Source of the DNA: a virus
Virus record (IMG/VR): IMGVR_UViG_3300049001_000027
Coordinates: 1-29,280 of that record
Direction: 5' to 3' (one strand)
DNA length: 29,280 nt
The translations under genes and the position numbers were made by a program. Under the pieces are notes generated by a model that saw only the letters and a program-made list of their open reading frames with translations, was not told the origin of the DNA and made no database searches. This document shows positions 3 to 29,280 of the stretch, one piece after another. The first letter of the stretch is position 1. Every line of letters starts with the position of its first letter.

Positions 3-1592
3 GGCAACAGCCGGGTATTGGTGCGGCCGTCCGAAATCGTCGGGTTCGCGCAAGACGACGCCAGCGAGGCGCTGATCGGCGCCTGCGGCGAGGCGGGGAT
101 ATTCGACCAGCAAGGGCGCGTGCGCGGCCGGGGCGCGCACCGCGGCCGCGCCGGGACGCTGATCGTCCACACCGGCGACAAGGTGATGGTCGCGCGCAAG
201 CGGGCGAACGGCAAGCCGGCGCCGGCCGAGTGGTTCGATACCGGGATGCACGACGGCTTCGTCTATCCGGCGGCCGAGCCGAGCCCGCGGCCGCACGGCG
301 AGCCGGTCGGCGCCGAGCCGGTCGAGCAGCTGCTCGCGCTGATCTCGACGTGGAACTGGCGGCGCGGGACGCTCGACGCGATGCTCGCCCTGGGCTGGAT
401 CGCGCAGACGTTCGTCTCGGGAGCGCTCGACTGGCGATCGCACATCTTCGTCACCGGTGGCGCCGGGACCGGCAAGTCGAGCTTCAACGGCAAGAATGGG
501 CTGTGCGATCGCCTGCTCGGCCGCGGCGCGCTGCGCACCGGCGGCGCGACCGAGGCGGCGGTGCGGCAGAAGCTGCGCGCGCAGACGATCCCGGTCATCT
601 TCGACGAATTCGAGCCGAACGCGTTCAACGCGCAGAAGCTGGCGGCGGTGCTCGAGCTCTGCCGCGTGGCGAGCTCGGGCAGCGAAATGCACAAGGGCGG
701 CAGCGATCACAACGCGGCCGAGTTCGTGCTCAATTCGTGCTTTCAGTTTTCCGCGATCCTGACGCCGCACATGGAGCCGCAGGATCGCAGCCGGTTCGCC
801 ATCCTCGAGCTCGAGCCGTTGCCGGGCGATGCGGTCAAGCTCAACCTCGAGGCCGCCAACCTGCCGGCGATCGGCGCGTCGTTGATGCGGCGGATGTTCG
901 ACGGCTGGTGGCGATGCGGGGCGACCTATGCGCTGTACCACGCCGAGCTGATCAAGCGCGGGCATTCGAACCGCTCGGCCGACACGTTCGGGACGTTGCT
1001 CGCGTGCGCGGATCTGGCGCTGTACGACCAGGTTCCCGATCGCGAGCTGCTCGAGGATTGGGCGCGGCGGTGTGCGCCTGGCGCGTTGTCCGAGATCTCG
1101 GAGGCCGCGCTCGATCACGACGCCTGCCTGCAGCACCTGGTCACCACGACGGTCCAGGCGCGCGGTGGCGATCTGCGCGAGACGCTCGGCACCTGGATCG
1201 GCCGCGGGGTCGGCCGCGTGCCGGTCGAGAGCGAGGGCGCGCGCGGGAAGCTGCAGGAATTCGGGTTGAAGGTGGTGACCGCTCGCGAGCTGCCCGAACC
1301 CGGGCCCGATGGGAGGCCGCGATATGGGGCGGTCGAGCATATCGCCGGCCAGAGCTGTTACCTGGCGATCGCCCAGGACCACCGCTCCCTCGCTGAAATC
1401 TTCGGGCCCACCAAGTGGCAGGCCGGCGGCTGGGGCCAGACGCTTGGCCGCGCGCCTGGCGGCCTGCGTGGGATCAAGGTGAAGTTCGCCAAGCGATCGC
1501 TGACCGCCGTCCTGGTGCCGATCGAGCACGTGGTCGACCGTGACGAGGTCGAAGGGTTCATGCCCTGCGCCGGCGTCGGAGGCGCATCATGA
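3..1592 (+). CDS. Phage replication ATPase/helicase-like protein (5'-truncated)
   Basis: This gene is cut by the left edge of the window. The reading frame is open back to base 3 and the residues there look like coding sequence, so the TTG at 18 is probably not the true start. A P-loop of the form GGAGTGKSS lies near 457-483 and a Walker B-like VIFDEFE near 595-615. An arginine-containing stretch (MEPQDRSRFAILELEPL) follows near 770-825 and could be a sensor or arginine-finger region. This layout fits the SF3/DUF927-like ATPases that many temperate phages use as replicative helicase-primase proteins, so the inferred role is origin melting or unwinding in the cytoplasm. It sits directly upstream of an iteron-rich gap that looks like an origin. 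The exact family cannot be fixed without a profile search; a non-helicase AAA ATPase is the main alternative. Confidence 0.6.
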   Translation, partial: GNSRVLVRPSEIVGFAQDDASEALIGACGEAGIFDQQGRVRGRGAHRGRAGTLIVHTGDKVMVARKRANGKPAPAEWFDTGMHDGFVYPAAEPSPRPHGEPVGAEPVEQLLALISTWNWRRGTLDAMLALGWIAQTFVSGALDWRSHIFVTGGAGTGKSSFNGKNGLCDRLLGRGALRTGGATEAAVRQKLRAQTIPVIFDEFEPNAFNAQKLAAVLELCRVASSGSEMHKGGSDHNAAEFVLNSCFQFSAILTPHMEPQDRSRFAILELEPLPGDAVKLNLEAANLPAIGASLMRRMFDGWWRCGATYALYHAELIKRGHSNRSADTFGTLLACADLALYDQVPDRELLEDWARRCAPGALSEISEAALDHDACLQHLVTTTVQARGGDLRETLGTWIGRGVGRVPVESEGARGKLQEFGLKVVTARELPEPGPDGRPRYGAVEHIAGQSCYLAIAQDHRSLAEIFGPTKWQAGGWGQTLGRAPGGLRGIKVKFAKRSLTAVLVPIEHVVDRDEVEGFMPCAGVGGAS

Positions 1593-3284: not shown

Positions 3285-3570
3285 TGCGCCCGCTCCCAAA
3301 AGTGGGAACAGCATGCCCCCGATGGCGCGCGAGTTGCGGCGCCTGCTGCTGCTCGATCGCGCCCGGATCGTGCTCGGCGGCGCTGAGAAGCTCGCCACGG
3401 CGCTGGGGATCGGCCGGCGAGCCGTGAACCACAAGCTGGCGGCCGAGCGATCGCTGACCAATCATGACCTCGAGCTGGCGGCCCGCGCGCTCGACGGCAG
3501 GGCCCGCGAGATCGATCAGCTGGCGAGCGATATTCGCGCGATGATCGCCATGTCGGCGGTCGACCAGTGA
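3277..3570 (+). CDS. Small helix-turn-helix protein between the terminase genes
   Basis: The product has 97 residues. GTG at 3277 is taken as start because GAGGAGG (3264-3270) sits 6 nt upstream. An earlier in-frame ATG at 3238 would overlap the small terminase by far more and has no such site. Residues about 36-56 (AEKLATALGIGRRAVNHKL) form a helix-turn-helix of the Cro/cI-like kind, with A-x-x-L-G-I at the turn. A second helical segment rich in Ala, Arg and Asp follows. It overlaps the small terminase by 8 bp and the large terminase by 4 bp (GTGA), so all three are translationally coupled. It may regulate late transcription or act as a second packaging-site binder; neither is shown. Confidence 0.7.
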   Translation: MVDAPAPKSGNSMPPMARELRRLLLLDRARIVLGGAEKLATALGIGRRAVNHKLAAERSLTNHDLELAARALDGRAREIDQLASDIRAMIAMSAVDQ

Positions 3571-5120
3571 GCGCCGCACGTCGCCTCGTCTCGCCGGGCC
3601 CGATCGCGGACGCTTTCATGCAAAGCCGCGCGTTCATTTGCGGGATTATCGGCCCGGTCGGCTCCGGCAAGACGATGGCCGCGCTGCAAAAGGGGCTGCG
3701 CCTGGCGGCGCAACAGGGCGGCCGCGTCGACGACAAGGGTGTTTTGTGGCGCAAGGCGCGGATCGGTGTGATCCGCGAAAGCTATCCGAGCCTGGAAAGC
3801 ACCACGCTCAAGAGCTGGTTCAACGTCGTGCCGGAGAGCGAAGGTAAATTCGGCTGGCGCGCGCCCTACGTCCACAAATTCCGCAAGATCCTGCGTCGCG
3901 AGGGCAATCGCCCCGATGGCCGGCCGATCGACGTGCTCGAGGTAGAATTCGAGTTCCGCGCGATCGGCAATCTGTCGGTCGAGGAAGCTTGCCGCGGCTG
4001 GGAAGTGAACGCGGTCATCATCGACGAAGCCGATTTGCAACCCGAGGACCTGGTTTCCTTCCTGACCGGCCGTATCGGGCGCTTCTCCGATCTCGATCCT
4101 GAAAGCGTCGTGGATCCGCAGATCATCCTCTCGCTCAACATGCCCGATATCGAGAACCACATCTATCAGCTGCTGATGGATCACGAGCTCGACACGGGCG
4201 AGCTGAGCGAAGAGGACCGCGCCGAGCTCGATCGCGTGCTCGATGGCCGGCCGCTGATCGAGGCGTTCATCCAGCCGGGCGGCCGCGAACCGAACGCAGA
4301 AAACCTGCATAACCTATCGGGCGGGCGCGGTTATTACATCCTGCAGGTCGCGTCGAACAAGCATAAGCCGGGCTATGTCGATCGCATGGTCGACAACAAG
4401 CCGGTGCCGTTGCAACACGGCCAACCGGTCAATGAGAAGTTCGTCCATTCGGCCCATGTGCGACCGCTGCCGTTCGATCGGCGCCGTAAATTGATCGTGG
4501 GGCTCGACCAGGGATTGTTCGCCGCCGCGGTGGCGCTGCAGCGCGACCAGGGCGGTGACATCCGCACGCTCGCCGAGCTGGTGAACTACGATCCGAAGAA
4601 AAAGAAACTGCTGAAGGTCGGCCCATCGGCGTTCGGCCGGGCGGTCAAGGCTATGCTCGGCGAGCGCTTCCCCGAGCTGACGCCCGACATGATCCGCGTC
4701 GTCGCGGATCCGGCAGCTTTCGCGGCCGACGATCGCGAGGACAATGAGCACGACTGGATCCGCGCCTGCCAGAAAACGCTGGGGCTCAAGATCCATCGCG
4801 CGAAATCGAACAAGGCGGCCCTGCGTAACGAGGCGATCTGGCAGGCCCAGGATCGCACCGGCGGCTATGCCGTCGATCCGAGCTGCAAGCACCTGATCAA
4901 GGGGCATTTGGGCGGCTACCGCTACGCCAAGGCCGAGCTCGGCACGGGCGAAACGCGCGGCCACCTCGAGATCGCCAACACGATCTACACGCACGTCGCC
5001 GACGCGGAGCAATACGCCGCGCTCGAGGGCGAGCACGTCATTGGCGATATCCGCGGCAAGGAACGCCGGCGGGCGCCGGTCAAGGTCGACGGCAATTTCG
5101 ACGAGCTAGGAGGTATCTGA
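3567..5120 (+). CDS. terL: Terminase large subunit (ATPase and nuclease)
   Basis: The product has 517 residues and starts with GTG inside the previous gene's stop. A Walker A motif GPVGSGKT lies at residues 29-36 and a Walker B with catalytic acid, VIIDEAD, at about 150-156. The C-terminal RNase H-like nuclease is marked by VGLDQG with Asp314, VVADPAA with Asp381, and a HVADAEQYAAL stretch near the C-terminus. That order matches phage large terminases, which translocate DNA into the prohead by ATP hydrolysis and cut the concatemer. The length is normal for a podovirus protein. The neighbours, small terminase upstream and portal downstream, support the call. The stop overlaps the next start by one base (TGATG). 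Confidence 0.92.
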   Translation: MSAARRLVSPGPIADAFMQSRAFICGIIGPVGSGKTMAALQKGLRLAAQQGGRVDDKGVLWRKARIGVIRESYPSLESTTLKSWFNVVPESEGKFGWRAPYVHKFRKILRREGNRPDGRPIDVLEVEFEFRAIGNLSVEEACRGWEVNAVIIDEADLQPEDLVSFLTGRIGRFSDLDPESVVDPQIILSLNMPDIENHIYQLLMDHELDTGELSEEDRAELDRVLDGRPLIEAFIQPGGREPNAENLHNLSGGRGYYILQVASNKHKPGYVDRMVDNKPVPLQHGQPVNEKFVHSAHVRPLPFDRRRKLIVGLDQGLFAAAVALQRDQGGDIRTLAELVNYDPKKKKLLKVGPSAFGRAVKAMLGERFPELTPDMIRVVADPAAFAADDREDNEHDWIRACQKTLGLKIHRAKSNKAALRNEAIWQAQDRTGGYAVDPSCKHLIKGHLGGYRYAKAELGTGETRGHLEIANTIYTHVADAEQYAALEGEHVIGDIRGKERRRAPVKVDGNFDELGGI

Positions 5121-6353: not shown

Positions 6354-8009
6354 ATGGCCGACGACAAGCTGCAGGATGACGATCTGGTCAAGGCGCACCT
6401 GCGCAATCACGATCGCCTCAGGGGATTGCGCACGCCCTGGGAAAGCGTCTTTCGCGAGATCGACGAGCGGGTCAATCCACTCGGCGCCGGCGGCTGGGAC
6501 AGCTCAACGCCCGGCCGCGTCGCGGGGGCGAGGAATTTCGACGTCACGGCCGTCGAGGGGCTCGATCGCTTCCAGGCCGCGATGCTGGCGATCACGGTTC
6601 CCTACCAGACCCAATATATCAAGCTCCGGTTCGGCGACAAAGACCTCGACAAGCTGCCCAATGTGCGCCGCTGGTGCGAATATGCCGGCGATCGCCTCTA
6701 TGCGATGCGGTACGCGCCGCACACCGGGTTCGGCGTCCAGGCCGGCGAGGACATGCGACAGCTCGGCAGCTACGGCACCGGCGCGCTGTGGAGCGGCGTC
6801 AAGCCAGGCCGCGGCCTGTTCTACAAGGCGCTGCATCTCTCCGAAATATTCATCGAAGAGGATTTCAGCGGTCAAGTCAGTACCGTGCACCGCGAATACC
6901 AGTTGACCGCACGGCAATGCTTGCAGGAATTCGGCGGCGATGCCCTAACCGGCAAGATGCGCGACGCGGTGCAGAAGAACAAGCTCGACGACAAGTTCCG
7001 CATTATTCACATCGTCTGCCCGAACGGCGATCTGCAGCCCGACGCGATCGATAACCGCTCGATGTTGGTCGACAGCATCACGATCGCGCTCGACGACAAG
7101 GCGATCCTGCGTCGCGGCGGGTTCCATTCGATGCCGATCGCGGTCTCGCGCCATGTCACCGGGCCGGGCGATGTCTATGGCCGCTCGCCCGCGTTGAAGG
7201 TGCTGCCGACGATCAAGGGCGTCAACGTGATGCAGCAAACCAACATGCGCGCCGGGCAGAAGATCGTCGACCCTGCGCTGGCGTTCTACGACGACGACGG
7301 CATCACCAGCCTGGTGACCAAGCCGGGCGGCGCCAACCCCGGCCTGGTCAACGAGCGCGGGCAGCTCATGGTCCAGGCGATGCCCACGGGGTCGAACCTG
7401 CCGGTGGGCCTGGAGATGGTCGAGGGCGAGCGCCAGGTCATCCGCACCGCGTTCCTGGAAGACTTCTTCAAGCTGCTGACCGACGAGAGCCCACAGCGAT
7501 CGGCGACAGCCGTGCTCGAAATCGCGTCGAAACAGGGCGTGCTCGTCTCGCCTTATGCCTTCCGCTACCAGACCGAGAAGCAAAACCCGGTCACCCAGCG
7601 AGATCTCGACCTGGCATTGCGCGCGGGGCAGATCGACCCGTTCCCGCCCGAAGTGCTCGAGGCGGGCGCCTATCCAATCATCGAATATGAAAACCCGCTG
7701 TCGCGCATGGCGCGTGCTGAGGAAGCGGCCGGCTTCACGCGCTGGATCGAGACGATGGCGCCGATGGCGCAGCTCGACAGCGGTGTGTTCGACCATGTCA
7801 ACACCGACGCGGCCGCGCCTGGCCTGGCCGATGTGCTCGGCGTGCGGCCGAGCTGGATTTCGACGCCCGACGAAGTCGCGACCAAGCGCAAGGCGCGCGC
7901 GGATGCCCAGGCCGAGCAATCGGGGGTCGATCAGCTCGCGACGGCGGCGGGTGCCTTCAAGGATCTCGCCTCGGCGAACGCGACCGCGCAACAGACGCAG
8001 GCGGCATGA
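6354..8009 (+). CDS. Portal (head-tail connector) protein
   Basis: The product has 551 residues, behind CCGGGGGTAGC. The N-terminal pattern, with PWESVFREIDERVNP near residue 25, then a region around TYGTGALW-like sequence (SYGTGALWSGVKPG, about residue 140), matches the podovirus head-to-tail connecting protein family (T7 gp8-like). Twelve copies form the ring at the unique vertex through which DNA is packaged and later ejected. A typical C-terminal segment rich in Ala and Gln follows. The length is in the usual 500-560 range for this family. The stop overlaps the next start by 4 bp (ATGA), in a tight head-assembly block with the Bbp19-like and scaffold genes. Confidence 0.9.
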   Translation: MADDKLQDDDLVKAHLRNHDRLRGLRTPWESVFREIDERVNPLGAGGWDSSTPGRVAGARNFDVTAVEGLDRFQAAMLAITVPYQTQYIKLRFGDKDLDKLPNVRRWCEYAGDRLYAMRYAPHTGFGVQAGEDMRQLGSYGTGALWSGVKPGRGLFYKALHLSEIFIEEDFSGQVSTVHREYQLTARQCLQEFGGDALTGKMRDAVQKNKLDDKFRIIHIVCPNGDLQPDAIDNRSMLVDSITIALDDKAILRRGGFHSMPIAVSRHVTGPGDVYGRSPALKVLPTIKGVNVMQQTNMRAGQKIVDPALAFYDDDGITSLVTKPGGANPGLVNERGQLMVQAMPTGSNLPVGLEMVEGERQVIRTAFLEDFFKLLTDESPQRSATAVLEIASKQGVLVSPYAFRYQTEKQNPVTQRDLDLALRAGQIDPFPPEVLEAGAYPIIEYENPLSRMARAEEAAGFTRWIETMAPMAQLDSGVFDHVNTDAAAPGLADVLGVRPSWISTPDEVATKRKARADAQAEQSGVDQLATAAGAFKDLASANATAQQTQAA

Positions 8010-9480: not shown

Positions 9481-10407
9481 ATGGCCGACGTCAATACAAC
9501 CGCAAATTATGAATTCTCGAACAACCTCGAGCTCGTCCTCAACCAGACCAAGTCCCTGCTCATGGACACGGTCGAGACGCAGCCGTGCACGAGCGCCGAG
9601 AAGGAAACCGTCAAGGATCTGATCGGCAACACTCAGCCCGAGGAAGCCGATGAGCGCAACGGCGATCTCAAGGAAACCGATCCCGGGCATGATCGCGTCT
9701 GGATCGTCAAGCCCAACGAGCTCTATTTCAACAAGTTCGTCGACGGCGCCGACCAGCTCGCGACCGCGATCTCGCTGGACGGTGCCTATACGTTGGCGGC
9801 GATGGCAACCGTCAACCGCGCCAAGGACGATCAGATCCTGGCCGGCATCTATGGTTCGATCATCAGCGGCAAGGATGGCACCACCACTACGCCATTCCCG
9901 AGCGGCAACATCGTGCCGGTCACCACGGGTGGCGCGTCGGGTGCGCAGCGGATGAACACCGCCAAGCTGCGGGCCGCCAACAAGATGCTCGACCAGAATT
10001 TCGTCGAGGCGACCGACCAGAAATACATGATCCTGGACGCCGAGCAGAACGACGATCTGCTGAGCGAGATCCCGGCGACCTCGAGCGACTTCACCGGCGC
10101 CTTCGGCGGCGTGTTCGACAACGGCAAGATCGTCAAGATGCTCGGTTGGAATTTCATCCACATGGAGCTCCGCAACCCGATGCTGCGCGCCATGACGAAG
10201 GGCCTGACGATCGACGGCAGCGGCTATACCAAAACGCCGTTCTGGGTGAAGTCTGGTGTCCGCGCGGGCATCTGGCAGGCGCTCCGCACGGCGATCAAGG
10301 ACCAGCCGTCCAAGGTCAACAGCCGTTCGGTGTTCGCCGGCACCACGATCGCGGCCACCCGGACCCAGGCGGGCAAGGTCGGCATCATCCTCAACAGCGA
10401 AGCGTAA
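9481..10407 (+). CDS. Major capsid protein
   Basis: The product has 308 residues, with a strong ribosome binding site (GAGGGG, 6 bp upstream of the ATG). The position right after the scaffold, the length, and the mixed alpha/beta composition fit an HK97-fold major capsid protein of the BPP-1/T7-like podovirus type. Examples of the pattern are DRVWIVKPNELYFNKFVDGA, MNTAKLRAANKMLDQN and a C-terminal TIAATRTQAGKVGIILNSEA. The protein forms the icosahedral head shell and would be the most abundant phage product. The 235-bp leader and the terminator further downstream are consistent with extra expression of this gene and the next. The alternative, another abundant virion protein, is unlikely given the gene order. 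Confidence 0.85.
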   Translation: MADVNTTANYEFSNNLELVLNQTKSLLMDTVETQPCTSAEKETVKDLIGNTQPEEADERNGDLKETDPGHDRVWIVKPNELYFNKFVDGADQLATAISLDGAYTLAAMATVNRAKDDQILAGIYGSIISGKDGTTTTPFPSGNIVPVTTGGASGAQRMNTAKLRAANKMLDQNFVEATDQKYMILDAEQNDDLLSEIPATSSDFTGAFGGVFDNGKIVKMLGWNFIHMELRNPMLRAMTKGLTIDGSGYTKTPFWVKSGVRAGIWQALRTAIKDQPSKVNSRSVFAGTTIAATRTQAGKVGIILNSEA

Positions 10408-11194: not shown

Positions 11195-11812
11195 ATGGCC
11201 GACTATGTCTCGATCGCGAATTTGGCGGCGTCGAAGCTGGGCGAGGACGATCAACTCCGTTCGCCCGAGGATGACACGCACCTCGGCCGCACCGTCGCCG
11301 CGGTGTGGGACCTGGTCCGCCAGGCGGCGCTGCGCGATCACAGCTGGAATTTCGCGATGAAGCGCGCGGCGCTGCCGAAGTCGGCGGCGGCCGCGCCATT
11401 TCCGTGGCGCTCGTCCTTTCCGCTGCCGGCGGACAATCTGCGCCTGGTCGAAGTGCTCGACCTGCAGGCACGGTCAGCCTATCAGATCGAGGGCCGCGCG
11501 ATCCTGTGCAATTCGGACGGCCCGGTCCACATCCGCTACATCACCGACGTCGCCGAGCCCGCGTTGTGGGACCAGCTCTTCGTCGAAGCGTTCGCCTGCC
11601 GGCTGGCATTCCAGATCTCCGATCGGATCACCGGCGACAGCAACCGCAAACAGGCGGCCTGGGCCGAGTACCAGGCCGCGCTCGCCCAGGCGAAGCGCGT
11701 CGACGCGCGAGAAAACCCGCAAGTGGCATGGGAAGCCGGGAGCTGGGAAACCGCGCGCCTCGGCGTCGATGAATGCCGCGTCTCGCCAGGGACGGGCACG
11801 ATATGGCCCTAG
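11195..11812 (+). CDS. Tail tubular protein A-like (gp11 family)
   Basis: The product has 205 residues. The N-terminal region (VSIANLAASKLGEDDQLRS) and the WDLVRQAALRDHSWNFAMKR stretch at about 37-58 are typical of the T7 gp11-like tail adaptor family: an all-helical head-completion protein with a conserved HxWNFA box. The protein forms the ring between portal and nozzle in short-tailed phages. A later AFACRLAFQISDRITGD helix also fits. The C-terminal 40 residues are less conserved in kind. The next gene begins 10 bp before this stop. Confidence 0.85.
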   Translation: MADYVSIANLAASKLGEDDQLRSPEDDTHLGRTVAAVWDLVRQAALRDHSWNFAMKRAALPKSAAAAPFPWRSSFPLPADNLRLVEVLDLQARSAYQIEGRAILCNSDGPVHIRYITDVAEPALWDQLFVEAFACRLAFQISDRITGDSNRKQAAWAEYQAALAQAKRVDARENPQVAWEAGSWETARLGVDECRVSPGTGTIWP

Positions 11813-14037
11813 AGCGGCCGATCGCGACAAGCTTCAACGGTGGCGAGCTCAGCCCGCGCATGGGCGGGAGGGTCGATACCTCGATATATTCCGTCGGGCT
11901 GGCGGTGTGCGAGAATTTCGTGCCGACTGTCGAGGGCGCGTTGGTGAAGCGGCCCGGCTTCGAATATATCGAGCCGGCGGCGGTAACGGCGACCTGGCTG
12001 ACCAGCTTTCGCTTCAATCTCACCCAGGACTATGTGATCGAGTGGAGCGACGGCAAGCTGCGCTTCTACACCAACGGCGCGCGGATCGAGACGTCGCCGG
12101 GCGTCCCGTTTGAAGTTGTCGTGCCGTACACGGCGGCCGAGGCCCCGCTGGTCAGCGCGCAACAGAGTTTCGACCGGCTGTATCTCGATCATCCCAATCA
12201 CCCGCCCGCGCGCCTGACGCGAACCTCGGCGACAACCTTCGCCTATGACGTGGCCGAGCTCGTGAACGGCCCGTTCGCCGATGCCAATATCGACGACACG
12301 ATCTCGGTCAGCGCGAGCGCCACGACGGGCAGCGGCGTAGCGCTGTCGGCGACCGCCAGCATCTTCACGTCCGACGATGTCGGCACGCTCTTTCGCCTCG
12401 AGGCGCAGGATTTCTCGGCGATCCCGGCGTGGATGCCTGGGATCAACGGCATTGTCGTCGGAACGAGCAAGGTCCGCAACGACGGCAAGGTCTATCTGGC
12501 GGTCGGCACCTCGAGCGACCATCGCACCGGGCAACAGGCGCCGATCCACACCAGCGGCACCGAATGGGACGGCATCGCCAGCGGCCAGGACATCAATGCC
12601 AAGGGGCCGTACGGCGTCCAGTGGGAATATCTGTACGACCGCTTCGGTATCGCCCTCATCACCGCGGTGGGGAGCGGCACCGCCGCGACGGCCGACATCG
12701 TTCGCAGACTGCCCGACGCGATCGTCACCGGGACCTGGCGCTGGGCGCATGCTTCGCTGTCGGCCGGGCGTGGCTGGCCGAGCGTCGTCAAGGCGTGGAA
12801 CGGGCGGTTGATCCACTTCCGCGGTTTCGACATGCTGGCCAGCGTCGCGGGCGACTTCCTCAATCATGCGACCTTCGATCCGACCGGCCTGCTCGAGGTC
12901 GATCTCGCGTTCCGGCGCACCCTGACGGCGGACGATCCGGTGCTATGGGCGCTCGGCGATCGCCGGCTGATCGTCGGCACGGCGTCGGCCGAGATCGCGA
13001 TCGGCTCGATCAACGAAGCCGTGGCGCTCAGCGGGGACAACGTCCAGGCGGTGCCGCAGTCGAATTACGGCAGCGAAGCGGTGTTCCCGCTGCAGATCGG
13101 ATCGACCGCGGCGGTGTTCGTCCAGCGCGGCGGCCGCAAGTTGCGCCAGGCCGAATACGATTTCGCGCGCGATCGCTATATCGCCGAAAATATCACGATC
13201 TGGGCCCGGCATATCACCGGCGGCGGCATCGTCCAGCTCGCCTATCAGCAGGAACCCGAGCAGCTCCTGGTCGCGCTGCGCTCGGACGGCCAGCTCGTCA
13301 CGCATCCGCAGGCGCCCGAACAGGACATCAAGGGCATGGCGCGGATCCGCGTCGGCGGCGACGGCGTGGTCAAGTCGGTCACGACGATCGCGGCGGCGGA
13401 CGGCAAGACCGATGAACTGTGGGCGCTGGTCGACCGCGACGGCGCGCTGAGCGTCGAACGCATGGCGCCGTGGCGCGACGATGGCGATCCGATCGAAACA
13501 TCGTTCTTCGTCGACGGCGGGGTCACGGCGATCGCCGGCATCGGCCAGGTCCATTTCTCCAACCTGATGCACCTGGCCGGCCGCGAGGTGTGGGTGCTGG
13601 CGGACGGCGGGGTCATCACCGGTATCACCATCGCCAATGACGGGACCTTCTCGATCTCGCCCGACGCGATCCCGAGCGATCGCCCCTACATCATCACGGT
13701 CGGCCTGCCCTACACCGCGACGGCGACGACGCTGCGCCCCGAGCTGCGCGGCAATGGCCAGACCAGCCAGGGCATTCGCCAGCGCGTCGTGCAGCTCATC
13801 CTTCGGCTGATCGAGACGACGGGGCTGCGCGTTGGCGTCCAGGGCGGAAAGCTCGACGAGCTGATCAACCGCGCCGGCAACGACACGATGGACGCGCCGA
13901 TCCCATTGTTCACCGGCGACACCGGTCAGAAGCTGTCGGGCAATTGGGACCGCACGGGTCAATCGACCGTGGTCAGCGACGCGCCGCTGCCGGCGGTGAT
14001 CGTCGCCGCCATGCCGACCGTGAACGCGACGACATGA
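11803..14037 (+). CDS. Tail tubular protein B-like (tail nozzle)
   Basis: The product has 744 residues from the ATG at 11803. An in-frame ATG at 11773 would add ten residues of poor quality and a longer overlap. The N-terminus IATSFNGGELSPRMGGRVD, followed by CENFVPTVEGALVKRPGFEYI, is a hallmark of the large podovirus nozzle or tail-tube proteins (similar in role to T7 gp12). The body is beta-rich with many short repeats, as expected for a propeller-like hexamer at the tail tip. It is translated in the same operon as the tail adaptor upstream and overlaps the next gene by 4 bp. The detailed subfamily is not assigned. Confidence 0.8.
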   Translation: MALERPIATSFNGGELSPRMGGRVDTSIYSVGLAVCENFVPTVEGALVKRPGFEYIEPAAVTATWLTSFRFNLTQDYVIEWSDGKLRFYTNGARIETSPGVPFEVVVPYTAAEAPLVSAQQSFDRLYLDHPNHPPARLTRTSATTFAYDVAELVNGPFADANIDDTISVSASATTGSGVALSATASIFTSDDVGTLFRLEAQDFSAIPAWMPGINGIVVGTSKVRNDGKVYLAVGTSSDHRTGQQAPIHTSGTEWDGIASGQDINAKGPYGVQWEYLYDRFGIALITAVGSGTAATADIVRRLPDAIVTGTWRWAHASLSAGRGWPSVVKAWNGRLIHFRGFDMLASVAGDFLNHATFDPTGLLEVDLAFRRTLTADDPVLWALGDRRLIVGTASAEIAIGSINEAVALSGDNVQAVPQSNYGSEAVFPLQIGSTAAVFVQRGGRKLRQAEYDFARDRYIAENITIWARHITGGGIVQLAYQQEPEQLLVALRSDGQLVTHPQAPEQDIKGMARIRVGGDGVVKSVTTIAAADGKTDELWALVDRDGALSVERMAPWRDDGDPIETSFFVDGGVTAIAGIGQVHFSNLMHLAGREVWVLADGGVITGITIANDGTFSISPDAIPSDRPYIITVGLPYTATATTLRPELRGNGQTSQGIRQRVVQLILRLIETTGLRVGVQGGKLDELINRAGNDTMDAPIPLFTGDTGQKLSGNWDRTGQSTVVSDAPLPAVIVAAMPTVNATT

Positions 14038-26209: not shown

Positions 26210-26752
26210 ATGCTTACCATCGACCAGGTGATCGATGGCGTGCTCGTCAATGAAGGCGGCTACGTCAACGACCCGCGCGATGCCGGCGGCGAAACCAATT
26301 TCGGGATCACGATCGCGACCGCGCGGCAGCAAGGCTATGCCGGCGCGATGCGCGACATGCCGCGCGATTTCGCCCGCGAGATCTACCGCCGGCAGTATGT
26401 GATCGCGCCAGGCTTCGACAAGATCTCGGCGATCGACGCGGCGATCGGCGCCGAGCTCGTCGACACCGGCGTCAACATGGGGCCCGCCGTCGCGGCGACG
26501 TTCCTGCAGCGCGCGCTGAACGGGCTCAACAACCAGGCCCGCGATTTCCCCGACATAACGGCCGATGGTGTGGCCGGAAATACCACCAGGGAGTCGCTCA
26601 GCGCGTTTCTGGCCAAGCGTGGCCCCGAGGGCCAGCGGCGCCTGCTCGCGCTCCTGAACGCCTTACAGGGCGCCAGATACCTCAGCCTGGCCGAGGGTCG
26701 GGCGGCCAACGAGGCGTTCCTCTACGGTTGGCTGGGGAGGGTTGTGGCATGA
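26210..26752 (+). CDS. Endolysin, GH108 family muramidase
   Basis: The product has 180 residues, with GGAG (26197-26200) upstream. The N-terminal half holds the GH108 signature: VNEGGYVNDPRDAGGETNFG with catalytic Glu15, followed by YRRQYV and ELVDTGVNMGPAVAATFLQR. The C-terminal part, from about residue 98, including DGVAGNTTRESLSAF, resembles the peptidoglycan-binding domain that usually accompanies this family. It would cut the glycan strands of the cell wall at the end of infection. There is no signal peptide, so export through a holin is expected; the adjacent two-helix protein is the candidate. Overlap with that gene is 4 bp. Confidence 0.9.
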   Translation: MLTIDQVIDGVLVNEGGYVNDPRDAGGETNFGITIATARQQGYAGAMRDMPRDFAREIYRRQYVIAPGFDKISAIDAAIGAELVDTGVNMGPAVAATFLQRALNGLNNQARDFPDITADGVAGNTTRESLSAFLAKRGPEGQRRLLALLNALQGARYLSLAEGRAANEAFLYGWLGRVVA

Positions 26753-27983: not shown

Positions 27984-28019
27984 TTCCGACATTGCGCGCC
28001 GCAGACGCCAATGTCGGAA
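27984..28019. repeat. Perfect 11-bp inverted repeat near the attachment site
   Basis: TTCCGACATTG (27984-27994) and CAATGTCGGAA (28009-28019) are exact complements, separated by 14 bp. The flanks do not contain a proper U-tract on either strand, so a terminator is unlikely. It lies about 40 bp from the tRNA fragment. It may be a recombinase or excisionase arm site, or an operator. Confidence 0.55.
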
Positions 28020-28060
28020 AAAGTGTACCAGCTAAGTCATTGAAAAATCATAAGGCGGGG

Positions 28061-28100
28061 AGCTTGGGAAGCTTCTGCTCTGCCATTGAGCTACACCCGC
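28061..28100 (-). tRNA. 5' half of tRNA-Gly(CCC); candidate right attachment site
   Basis: Read on the minus strand from 28100, the sequence begins GCGGGTGTAGCTCAATGGCA, then the D-arm closing GAGC and the anticodon arm GAAGC-TTCCCAA-GCT, with CCC at the anticodon positions. This matches what I recall of alphaproteobacterial tRNA-Gly(CCC) for the first 40 nt. After that the sequence runs into CCCCGCCTTATGA, and there is no T-arm (no GGTTCGA) or matching acceptor end. It is therefore a partial gene. A tRNA broken in the anticodon arm at the edge of a phage genome is what integration by a tyrosine recombinase would leave, so the boundary between prophage (left) and chromosome (right) is placed here. 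Confidence 0.75.
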
Positions 28101-28510
28101 ATTTCAAACACTTGGCTGCATCAAGGGCACGCGTTTTGCCGTGCTTTGCGCAGTTGGATGTTCAGCGGGCTGGGCAGTGCCACACTCCCCGGACAACGGT
28201 CAACGGTATTTGCGGTTTGAAAGGCCCCGGTTTGCCGACTGCTTGGTCTGCGAAATCGTCGCCCAGTCCAATCCGAACCGGGCGAGATACTTGCGCAGCC
28301 GATCCGCGTCGTTGGCGGTGAGAGCGACAGGGTCTTGGCGTGCATGGATATGGGCGCCCGATGGACCTGCGAGCTTATCGATCGGACTGCCCAAGTATTT
28401 GCTCATTCAGGTTGATGTTATTGCGACATAAGCAACATTATTTTCCGACTTTGGCCGGCTAGAATCCTGACAACCTCCGTAAGTCGAAGAATTCCGCGCT
28501 AGAGCCCCGA
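28101..28510. other. Flanking chromosomal spacer with no clear gene
   Basis: About 410 bp lie between the tRNA fragment and the GH16 promoter. Only a weak 68-codon minus-strand frame (28200-28406) is present. An 8-bp motif AGCAACAT (28431-28438) recurs inverted as ATGTTGCT (28516-28523) at the GH16 promoter and may be a binding site. Nothing else was recognised. Confidence 0.4.
28200..28406 (-). CDS. Doubtful 68-residue hypothetical protein
   Basis: The frame begins ATG AGC AAA at 28406, and upstream sequence on that strand is AT-rich, but no good ribosome binding site is seen. The product has a plausible amphipathic helix region (LTANDADRLRKYLARFGLDW) and an irregular C-terminus. It could be a small real gene, or the remnant of a larger one cut off by the prophage insertion. 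The family is unknown. Confidence 0.3.
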   Translation of the reverse strand: MSKYLGSPIDKLAGPSGAHIHARQDPVALTANDADRLRKYLARFGLDWATISQTKQSANRGLSNRKYR

Positions 28511-28599: not shown

Positions 28600-29280
28600 A
28601 TGCGGCATATGCTGAAAGCTGCGGTTGGTGGCTGCCCGCTCGCGATGATCGTTTCGATGTGCGCATACAGTATCGGCTGGCCTCAAGCCGCTACCGCGTC
28701 GCCGCCTGCCGGCTACGCGTTGGCCTATGCCGACGAATTCAACAGTACGGCCCTCAATACGAACGACTGGTATTATCGCATCGCCGAGCCTTATCGGGGC
28801 GGATATGTTCGATCCCAGAACGTCTCGCTTGATGGAAGCAATCTGCGGCTCAGGTTCGGTTACGAAGACATAACGGGCGACGGCGTGTCCGACTATACTG
28901 GCGGCGGCATCATGTCGCGCAACAATTTCGGTTATGGTTATTATGAAGTCCGGGCCCGCTTGTTTGGCGGAACCACCGGGCTGCACTCTTCATTCTGGTC
29001 GATGGGAATCCGGCGCGACATGTCTGGCGCCGGCGGCGACCCCAAGATCGATCAGGATATCGATGCCAACCTCCAGCCCGAGAACAACCAGCTATATGAG
29101 ATTGACGGCTTCGAGCACGATTCGCCGGACAGCATGGGCATGGGCGACTTCGCGCAGTCGTCAGGCACGGTCGGCCATCGTCAGGTAGCACGGAATGGCG
29201 CGCAAATGGGCGTCAACTATGCCGACTGGAACGTGTACGGGTTCGAATACACGCCGACCTATACCAACTTCTATGTGAAC
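28600..29280 (+). CDS. Secreted GH16-family glycoside hydrolase (3'-truncated)
   Basis: The frame is open from ATG 28600 to the window end (227 codons), behind the strong site GGGAGGGG (28589-28596). Residues 1-33 look like a signal peptide (hydrophobic core around LAMIVSMCAYSIGW, probable cleavage after QAATA). The catalytic domain follows: YADEFNSTALNTNDWYYR near residues 43-60, GYYEVRARLFGG and HSSFWSMGI, then YEIDGFEHD at about residue 168-176. E-I-D-G-F-E is the GH16 catalytic motif (nucleophile and acid/base Glu around an Asp). GH16 enzymes cut beta-1,3/1,4-glucans or marine galactans such as agar and carrageenan; the substrate cannot be told from this part. It lies outside the phage module and is probably chromosomal. 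Confidence 0.85.
   Translation, partial: MRHMLKAAVGGCPLAMIVSMCAYSIGWPQAATASPPAGYALAYADEFNSTALNTNDWYYRIAEPYRGGYVRSQNVSLDGSNLRLRFGYEDITGDGVSDYTGGGIMSRNNFGYGYYEVRARLFGGTTGLHSSFWSMGIRRDMSGAGGDPKIDQDIDANLQPENNQLYEIDGFEHDSPDSMGMGDFAQSSGTVGHRQVARNGAQMGVNYADWNVYGFEYTPTYTNFYVN

Follow-up and report, generated by a model that had tools for sequence, protein, structure and literature searches.

A displaced 5' half of tRNA-Gly(CCC) marks a likely 5'-side prophage junction in a Sphingomonas-like host

The stretch of DNA analysed here (29,280 bases, hereafter the window) very likely contains one end of a temperate, podovirus-like prophage, the end with the displaced fragment; on this reading a tyrosine integrase recombined phage and host within the anticodon arm of tRNA-Gly(CCC), and the phage brought the 5' half of that tRNA with it and restored the gene at its far end. 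We also consider it probable, with somewhat less confidence, that widespread Sphingomonas elements integrate on this 5' side with a portable promoter of host type, in several of them within the codons of the catalytic tyrosine (TAY GTT GAC ... GTG GCA), and that the integrase stub persists as the host tRNA promoter after the element has decayed (L035, L042, G170).

On the minus strand, positions 28100→28061 of the window read GCGGGTGTAGCTCAATGGCAGAGCAGAAGCTTCCCAAGCT, an exact match to nucleotides 1–40 of intact Sphingomonas tRNA-Gly(CCC) genes and one far beyond chance. The match runs from the 5' end of the tRNA to the 3' strand of the anticodon stem; after nucleotide 40 the window reads CCCCGCCTTATG..., intact genes have TACGACGAGGGTTCGA... 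there, and the bases beyond are unlike any T-arm. ARAGORN calls no tRNA anywhere in the window. From this break we infer a crossover within the anticodon arm. A prophage boundary in this anticodon arm had been proposed by the initial annotation, and it is borne out by the exact 40 nucleotides, the host DNA upstream and the phage DNA that replaces the T-arm; the span then given, 28050–28100, was correct to within about 10 nt. The features around the junction are as follows.

28061..28100, minus strand: displaced 5' half (nt 1-40) of tRNA-Gly(CCC), att junction; exact match, no ARAGORN tRNA.
27984..28060, minus strand: putative phage-side arm (P') of the attachment site, from its sequence, an inverted repeat and similar arms in relatives.
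28101..28320, minus strand: chromosomal 5' flank of the tRNA gene, from its match to Sphingomonas genome G015.
28178..28203, minus strand: tRNA-Gly promoter-like TTGACC-N14-GTGGCA, a motif 103 nt upstream of the fragment.
28200..28406 (homologous part 28200-28320), minus strand: C-terminal remnant of an RtcR-type RNA-repair regulator (NCBIfam NF038308).
28600..29280, plus strand: glycoside hydrolase family 16 gene of the host, truncated where the record ends (Pfam PF00722).

The flank is 86% identical to G015 over 260 nt, the 40-nt fragment included, and the matched stretch of G015 lies upstream of an intact tRNA-Gly(CCC) whose T-arm continues normally and which ARAGORN calls as tRNA-Gly(ccc); the 28101–28320 side is therefore chromosomal. 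G015 is free of an insertion, its tRNA uninterrupted behind the same upstream flank as in the window. The initial annotation had counted a full tRNA in such a relative against its own reading; one is indeed found in G015, but it marks the empty site. The RtcR remnant covers model positions 505-529 of NF038308 (E=1.4e-5); in G015 the RtcR match that directly precedes tRNA-Gly(CCC) is much longer (L083 6638-8191), and the window host has the regulator reduced to its C-terminal remnant. The GH16 protein shares 84% amino acid identity with Sphingomonas pruni, and the host is a Sphingomonas-like bacterium.

In the P' arm, on the other side of the fragment, a TTTTTCAATGACTTAGC motif stands at about 28029-28045, and 27984-27994 / 28009-28019 form a perfect 11-nt inverted repeat. 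Beyond it lie the phage genes.

18..1592, plus strand: phage protein, primase/helicase-like by inspection; 66-72% identity in six viral contigs.
3567..5120, plus strand: terminase large subunit (PHROG_2, E=5e-8; 73% identity in the sibling prophage G133).
6354..8009, plus strand: head-tail connector / portal (Pfam PF12236, E=8e-84).
9481..10407, plus strand: major head protein (PHROG_3437, E=4e-44).
11195-11812 and 11773-14037, plus strand: two podovirus-type tail proteins (PHROG_394, PHROG_376).
26210..26752, plus strand: endolysin with glycosyl hydrolase 108 and peptidoglycan-binding domains (Pfam PF05838, PF09374).

With its connector and its podovirus-type tail and head genes, this is a temperate phage of podovirus type, and because it lies to the left of a chromosomal flank and a GH16 gene, the window contains a host/prophage junction. 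The endolysin gene sits near the fragment end of the prophage; the protein at 18..1592, which had no hit in a Pfam search, has relatives kept near the integrase end in sibling phages. A direct DNA search with the window phage returned one match, a distant record. The record stops before the far junction and holds no integrase gene; the PF00589 profile finds an integrase in five of nine related viral records, the other four being cut or their integrase divergent.

Two readings would take the fragment away from this phage. A chimeric contig or other assembly artefact at 28060 might be suspected in a record from a metagenome-type virus collection, but more than 20 independent genomes and viral contigs show the same junction type with the same break nucleotide, which leaves that explanation barely credible. 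The fragment might also be the old remnant of a lost element, or lie between tandem elements. Tandem arrays are known, and the promoter-like motif of the flank (28203→28178), which stayed behind with the fragment, stands at −103, a spacing typical of element arms, so that it could belong to an old P arm. Because of this element-type distance, the host locus may be a relic arm, the scar of an older element into which the present phage inserted. Against the fragment itself being such a remnant, the P' arm leads straight into the lysis end of the window phage and resembles the arms that adjoin the fragment in L017, G133 and G075, and the flank contains a GH16 gene and an rtcR remnant of chromosomal origin but no element genes; we regard this reading as decidedly unlikely.

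The far end of the phage can be seen in a complete sibling. G133 carries a 40.8-kb prophage with both junctions visible, the fragment at C9:298502 and an intact tRNA at 339273; between it and the window phage, the terminase, portal, head and tail proteins share 60–73% identity. Its order is fragment, fiber/tail, capsid, portal, TerL, primase-like gene, integrase and intact tRNA, which is the order of the window extended to the window's missing end. The G133 integrase is recognised as a tyrosine integrase by PHROG_1 (E=2e-21), its match to Pfam PF00589 being weak. An integrase gene stands directly upstream of the intact tRNA, on the same strand, in G133 and ten others of the 13 two-copy genomes examined for it, with 23–397 nt between its stop codon and the tRNA; sibling integrase reading frames are unsplit and wholly within the element. 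In another sibling, G075, the fragment is at 608 and the sequence ends at 37.7 kb, before the second junction, as in the window.

The pairing of a fragment with an intact gene recurs widely. The 40-nt 5' half followed by non-tRNA DNA is present in 21 of 295 genomes of the genus Sphingomonas, and further copies precede non-tRNA DNA in at least 7 places in viral contigs. Two copies are present in 18 genomes, always as one fragment and one complete tRNA-Gly(CCC). Fourteen of these pairs share a contig and a strand, and in every one the fragment is upstream, with the complete gene 1.9–45 kb downstream (2^-14 = 6e-5 for the orientation, although the genomes are related and hence not independent). 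This geometry (host 5' flank–5' half–P' ... P–5' half–3' half–host) is what is expected if the element brings the 5' half. The other four pairs are split across contigs (G136, G216, G237) or, in G252, lie on opposite strands. A distance of 2.09 Mb separates the intact gene of G252, C1:102834(+), from its fragment, C1:2190413(-), an arrangement that points to a large inversion of the chromosome between the att copies.

A single polymorphism tells which partner supplied the 5' part of the restored gene. At tRNA nucleotide 19 the fragment of G023 has T and its intact gene C, and G085 has the reverse; the 5' part of the intact gene is thus element-derived and the crossover lies 3' of nucleotide 19, in agreement with a putative anticodon-arm site. 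In the contig IMGVR_UViG_3300034072_001527, one intact tRNA-Gly(CCC) is followed by two successive 5' fragments (L015, L027, L009), two elements in tandem; the tRNA copies there bound a prophage of ~40 kb and a ~10-kb element in which one gene resembles a DNA methyltransferase.

These pairs bear directly on whether the host tRNA was broken. The initial annotation held that the boundary had apparently formed without restoring the gene, and weighed two explanations: a tRNA left broken and unrestored, its host relying on tRNA-Gly(UCC) to read GGG, or a rare 5'-half identity block carried by the phage. Loss might perhaps be tolerated, since tRNA-Gly(CCC) is unrecognisable at up to 3 mismatches in 22 of the 295 Sphingomonas genomes (lineage-specific loss or assembly gaps), among them S. 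pruni (G001), the closest GH16 match; such tolerance is, however, unneeded to explain the window junction. Three genomes (G075, G155, G281) do have a fragment with no intact copy and no 3' half anywhere, but their contigs end inside or beside the element, like the window, and so they are uninformative on tRNA breakage. Set against exactly one intact gene in all 18 two-copy genomes, a broken tRNA is unlikely. Nor is a boundary without restoration supported: wherever relatives show both junctions, a phage-borne 5' half has restored the gene at the far end, and what is to be expected at the left junction is not the bare 3' half once predicted for it but an intact tRNA made of the phage 5' half and the host 3' half.

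A lost gene could also be replaced by tRNA-dependent lysogeny, in which integration at a short core disrupts the host gene and a complete phage tRNA gene elsewhere makes up for it, a known mechanism exemplified by mycobacteriophage Fionnbharth (PMC10865867). We consider this very improbable here: the ~28 kb of phage DNA in the window holds no tRNA, the identity block is a full 5' half in place of a short core, and the intact gene of siblings coincides with the far junction, its 5' part coming from the phage and its 3' part from the host. That the phage carries a 5'-half identity block is thus the explanation that fits, and we hold it to be very likely.

Under integration on the 5' side, the phage attachment site would run from a P arm through tRNA nt 1–40 to a P' arm, and the tyrosine integrase would act on tRNA-Gly(CCC) within its anticodon arm. 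Beside P', integration would leave the native promoter and 5' half that belong to the host, giving the junction in the window, and at the far end the phage P arm and phage 5' half would be joined to the host 3' half. To the left of the record, at a distance of about 10 kb or more from its end, an intact tRNA would then stand beside the integrase gene, and the rebuilt tRNA could be transcribed from a host-like tRNA promoter in the P arm, as relatives carry. From the complete sibling and the 18 two-copy genomes we infer the window's own far junction, integrase and tRNA expression, and at the opposite end of the prophage, beyond the record, the host very probably retains a working tRNA.

Because the native promoter remains with the fragment after 5'-side integration, the phage must also supply transcription of the tRNA. 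Among the native tRNA-Gly(CCC) genes of uninfected genomes, many are preceded by TTGAC(A/C/G)-N14-(G/A)TGGCA, located at about −38 to −50. A similar motif precedes tRNA-Gly(TCC), and the motif used here was taken from these native tRNA-Gly genes. In its strict form it occurs in only 3 of 32 surveyed tRNA upstream regions, tRNA-Gly(TCC) and tRNA-Gly(CCC) among the three, and we therefore call it tRNA-Gly-type and not universal. When the window flank was scanned for general sigma-70 promoters, the minus strand gave nothing relevant, since tRNA promoters of sphingomonads differ from the E. coli −10.

The relaxed motif occurs 39 times in 82 distinct upstream regions (300–600 nt), nine times at −36 to −64, thirty times at −83 to −126 and nowhere else, and the distant class is associated with element arms. 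Elements with the commoner integrase type carry the host tRNA-Gly promoter form TTGAC-N14-GTGGCA 83–126 nt upstream; we read the motif as a candidate portable tRNA promoter carried by elements. The place of the candidate promoter varies with the end of the integrase gene: if that end is well upstream of the tRNA, the promoter is outside the gene, at about −104/−106; if it is close to the tRNA, the promoter falls within the gene on the catalytic-tyrosine codons, and the 3' end of the integrase gene would then double as the promoter of the rebuilt host tRNA. The G133 type of integrase has no TTGAC in its P arm; its candidate promoter, TTGCGC-N14-GGATAAGGG, matches the form of the host's native TTGCAC-N14-GGGTAAGGG in this single pair.

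Codon choice around the catalytic tyrosine follows distance from the tRNA. When these codons are 103–125 nt away they read TAY GTT GAC (TGT GTT GAC in one relic), giving TTGAC in 11/11 and both TTGAC and TGGCA in 8/11, whereas at 197–465 nt the same residues are encoded as GTC GAC, GTC GAT or GTT GAT and TTGAC is found in 0/7. Fisher's exact test yields 3e-5 for 11/11 vs 0/7, and 1.6e-4 for 8/8 vs 0/7 when three near cases with differing protein ends are omitted, both on related sequences grouped post hoc. The chance of GTT, GAC and GCA together from codon use is about 0.9%; codon use in a single element is thus too common to prove selection, and the contrast between near and far carries the argument. 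The motif is kept in stubs that have the catalytic tyrosine changed to cysteine (L042) or glycine (G170/L175) or the reading frame broken (L035); these integrase C-terminal stubs lie directly upstream of intact tRNA-Gly(CCC).

Not every relative uses the site in this way. The integrase of G036 (L060 1687-2931), 72% identical to that of G133, is 3' of an intact tRNA-Gly(CCC), and related head/tail genes in G170 (L175) also sit 3' of its tRNA, so that related elements may use either side of one tRNA; in most of the ten portal-bearing genomes the phage is elsewhere than at this tRNA.

Many elements, related and unrelated, enter one tRNA from its 5' side, and transcription of this host gene thereby passes to them. 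Should the promoter evidence hold, it would show how 5'-side integration becomes harmless, place a host tRNA under the control of mobile elements, and provide a clear two-function case in which an enzyme active site and a promoter share the same nucleotides. Reports of a broken tRNA in cut virus records call for caution, as such a fragment can be half of a restored gene.

Ordinary tRNA prophages almost always carry the 3' half of the gene and leave the host's native promoter untouched. The present system, as its siblings show it, shares with them a tyrosine integrase, a tRNA target and a restored gene; it differs in that they keep the 3' half and the native promoter, and the layout here is mirrored. 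The window junction is a member of a rare, already known 5'-side class: as given in the available part of the Islander article (Hudson, Lau & Williams; PMC4383910), 159 islands have 5' tDNA fragments vs 3,760 with 3' fragments, the former with a displaced 5' fragment upstream, as here, and an intact gene restored at the far end, as in the siblings of the window phage, and the crossover classes include anticodon-arm sites like the one proposed here. The displaced 5'-terminal piece in tRNA orientation is present in the window (nt 1-40 exact), the uninterrupted tRNA of an insertion-free relative in G015, and the restored downstream gene, which for the window phage would lie beyond the record, in G133 and all 14 same-contig, same-strand pairs. 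That part of the article neither describes tRNA-Gly(CCC) of Sphingomonas nor discusses a replacement promoter, and we found no description in the openly accessible literature of a host-type replacement promoter partly embedded in integrase codons. Fionnbharth likewise compensates its host for a tRNA gene lost to integration, but it does so with a complete extra tRNA gene (PMC10865867), of which there is none in the window's part of the phage; in the siblings studied here the target gene itself is rebuilt. The pTN3-like archaeal integrases, according to a review of archaeal recombinases (PMC8371274, citing Cossu et al. 2017), use the tRNA 5' half and have the rebuilt tRNA expressed from the integrase promoter, an arrangement rarely encountered in bacteria. 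They share with the system proposed here an attB in the tRNA 5' half, a restored gene and a replaced promoter, and differ in being archaeal, in splitting the integrase gene on integration (as in SSV-type systems) and in placing the tRNA under the integrase promoter (PMC8371274); in the siblings described here, by contrast, the integrase gene is left unsplit, and the candidate tRNA-Gly-type promoter lies near or inside its 3' end.
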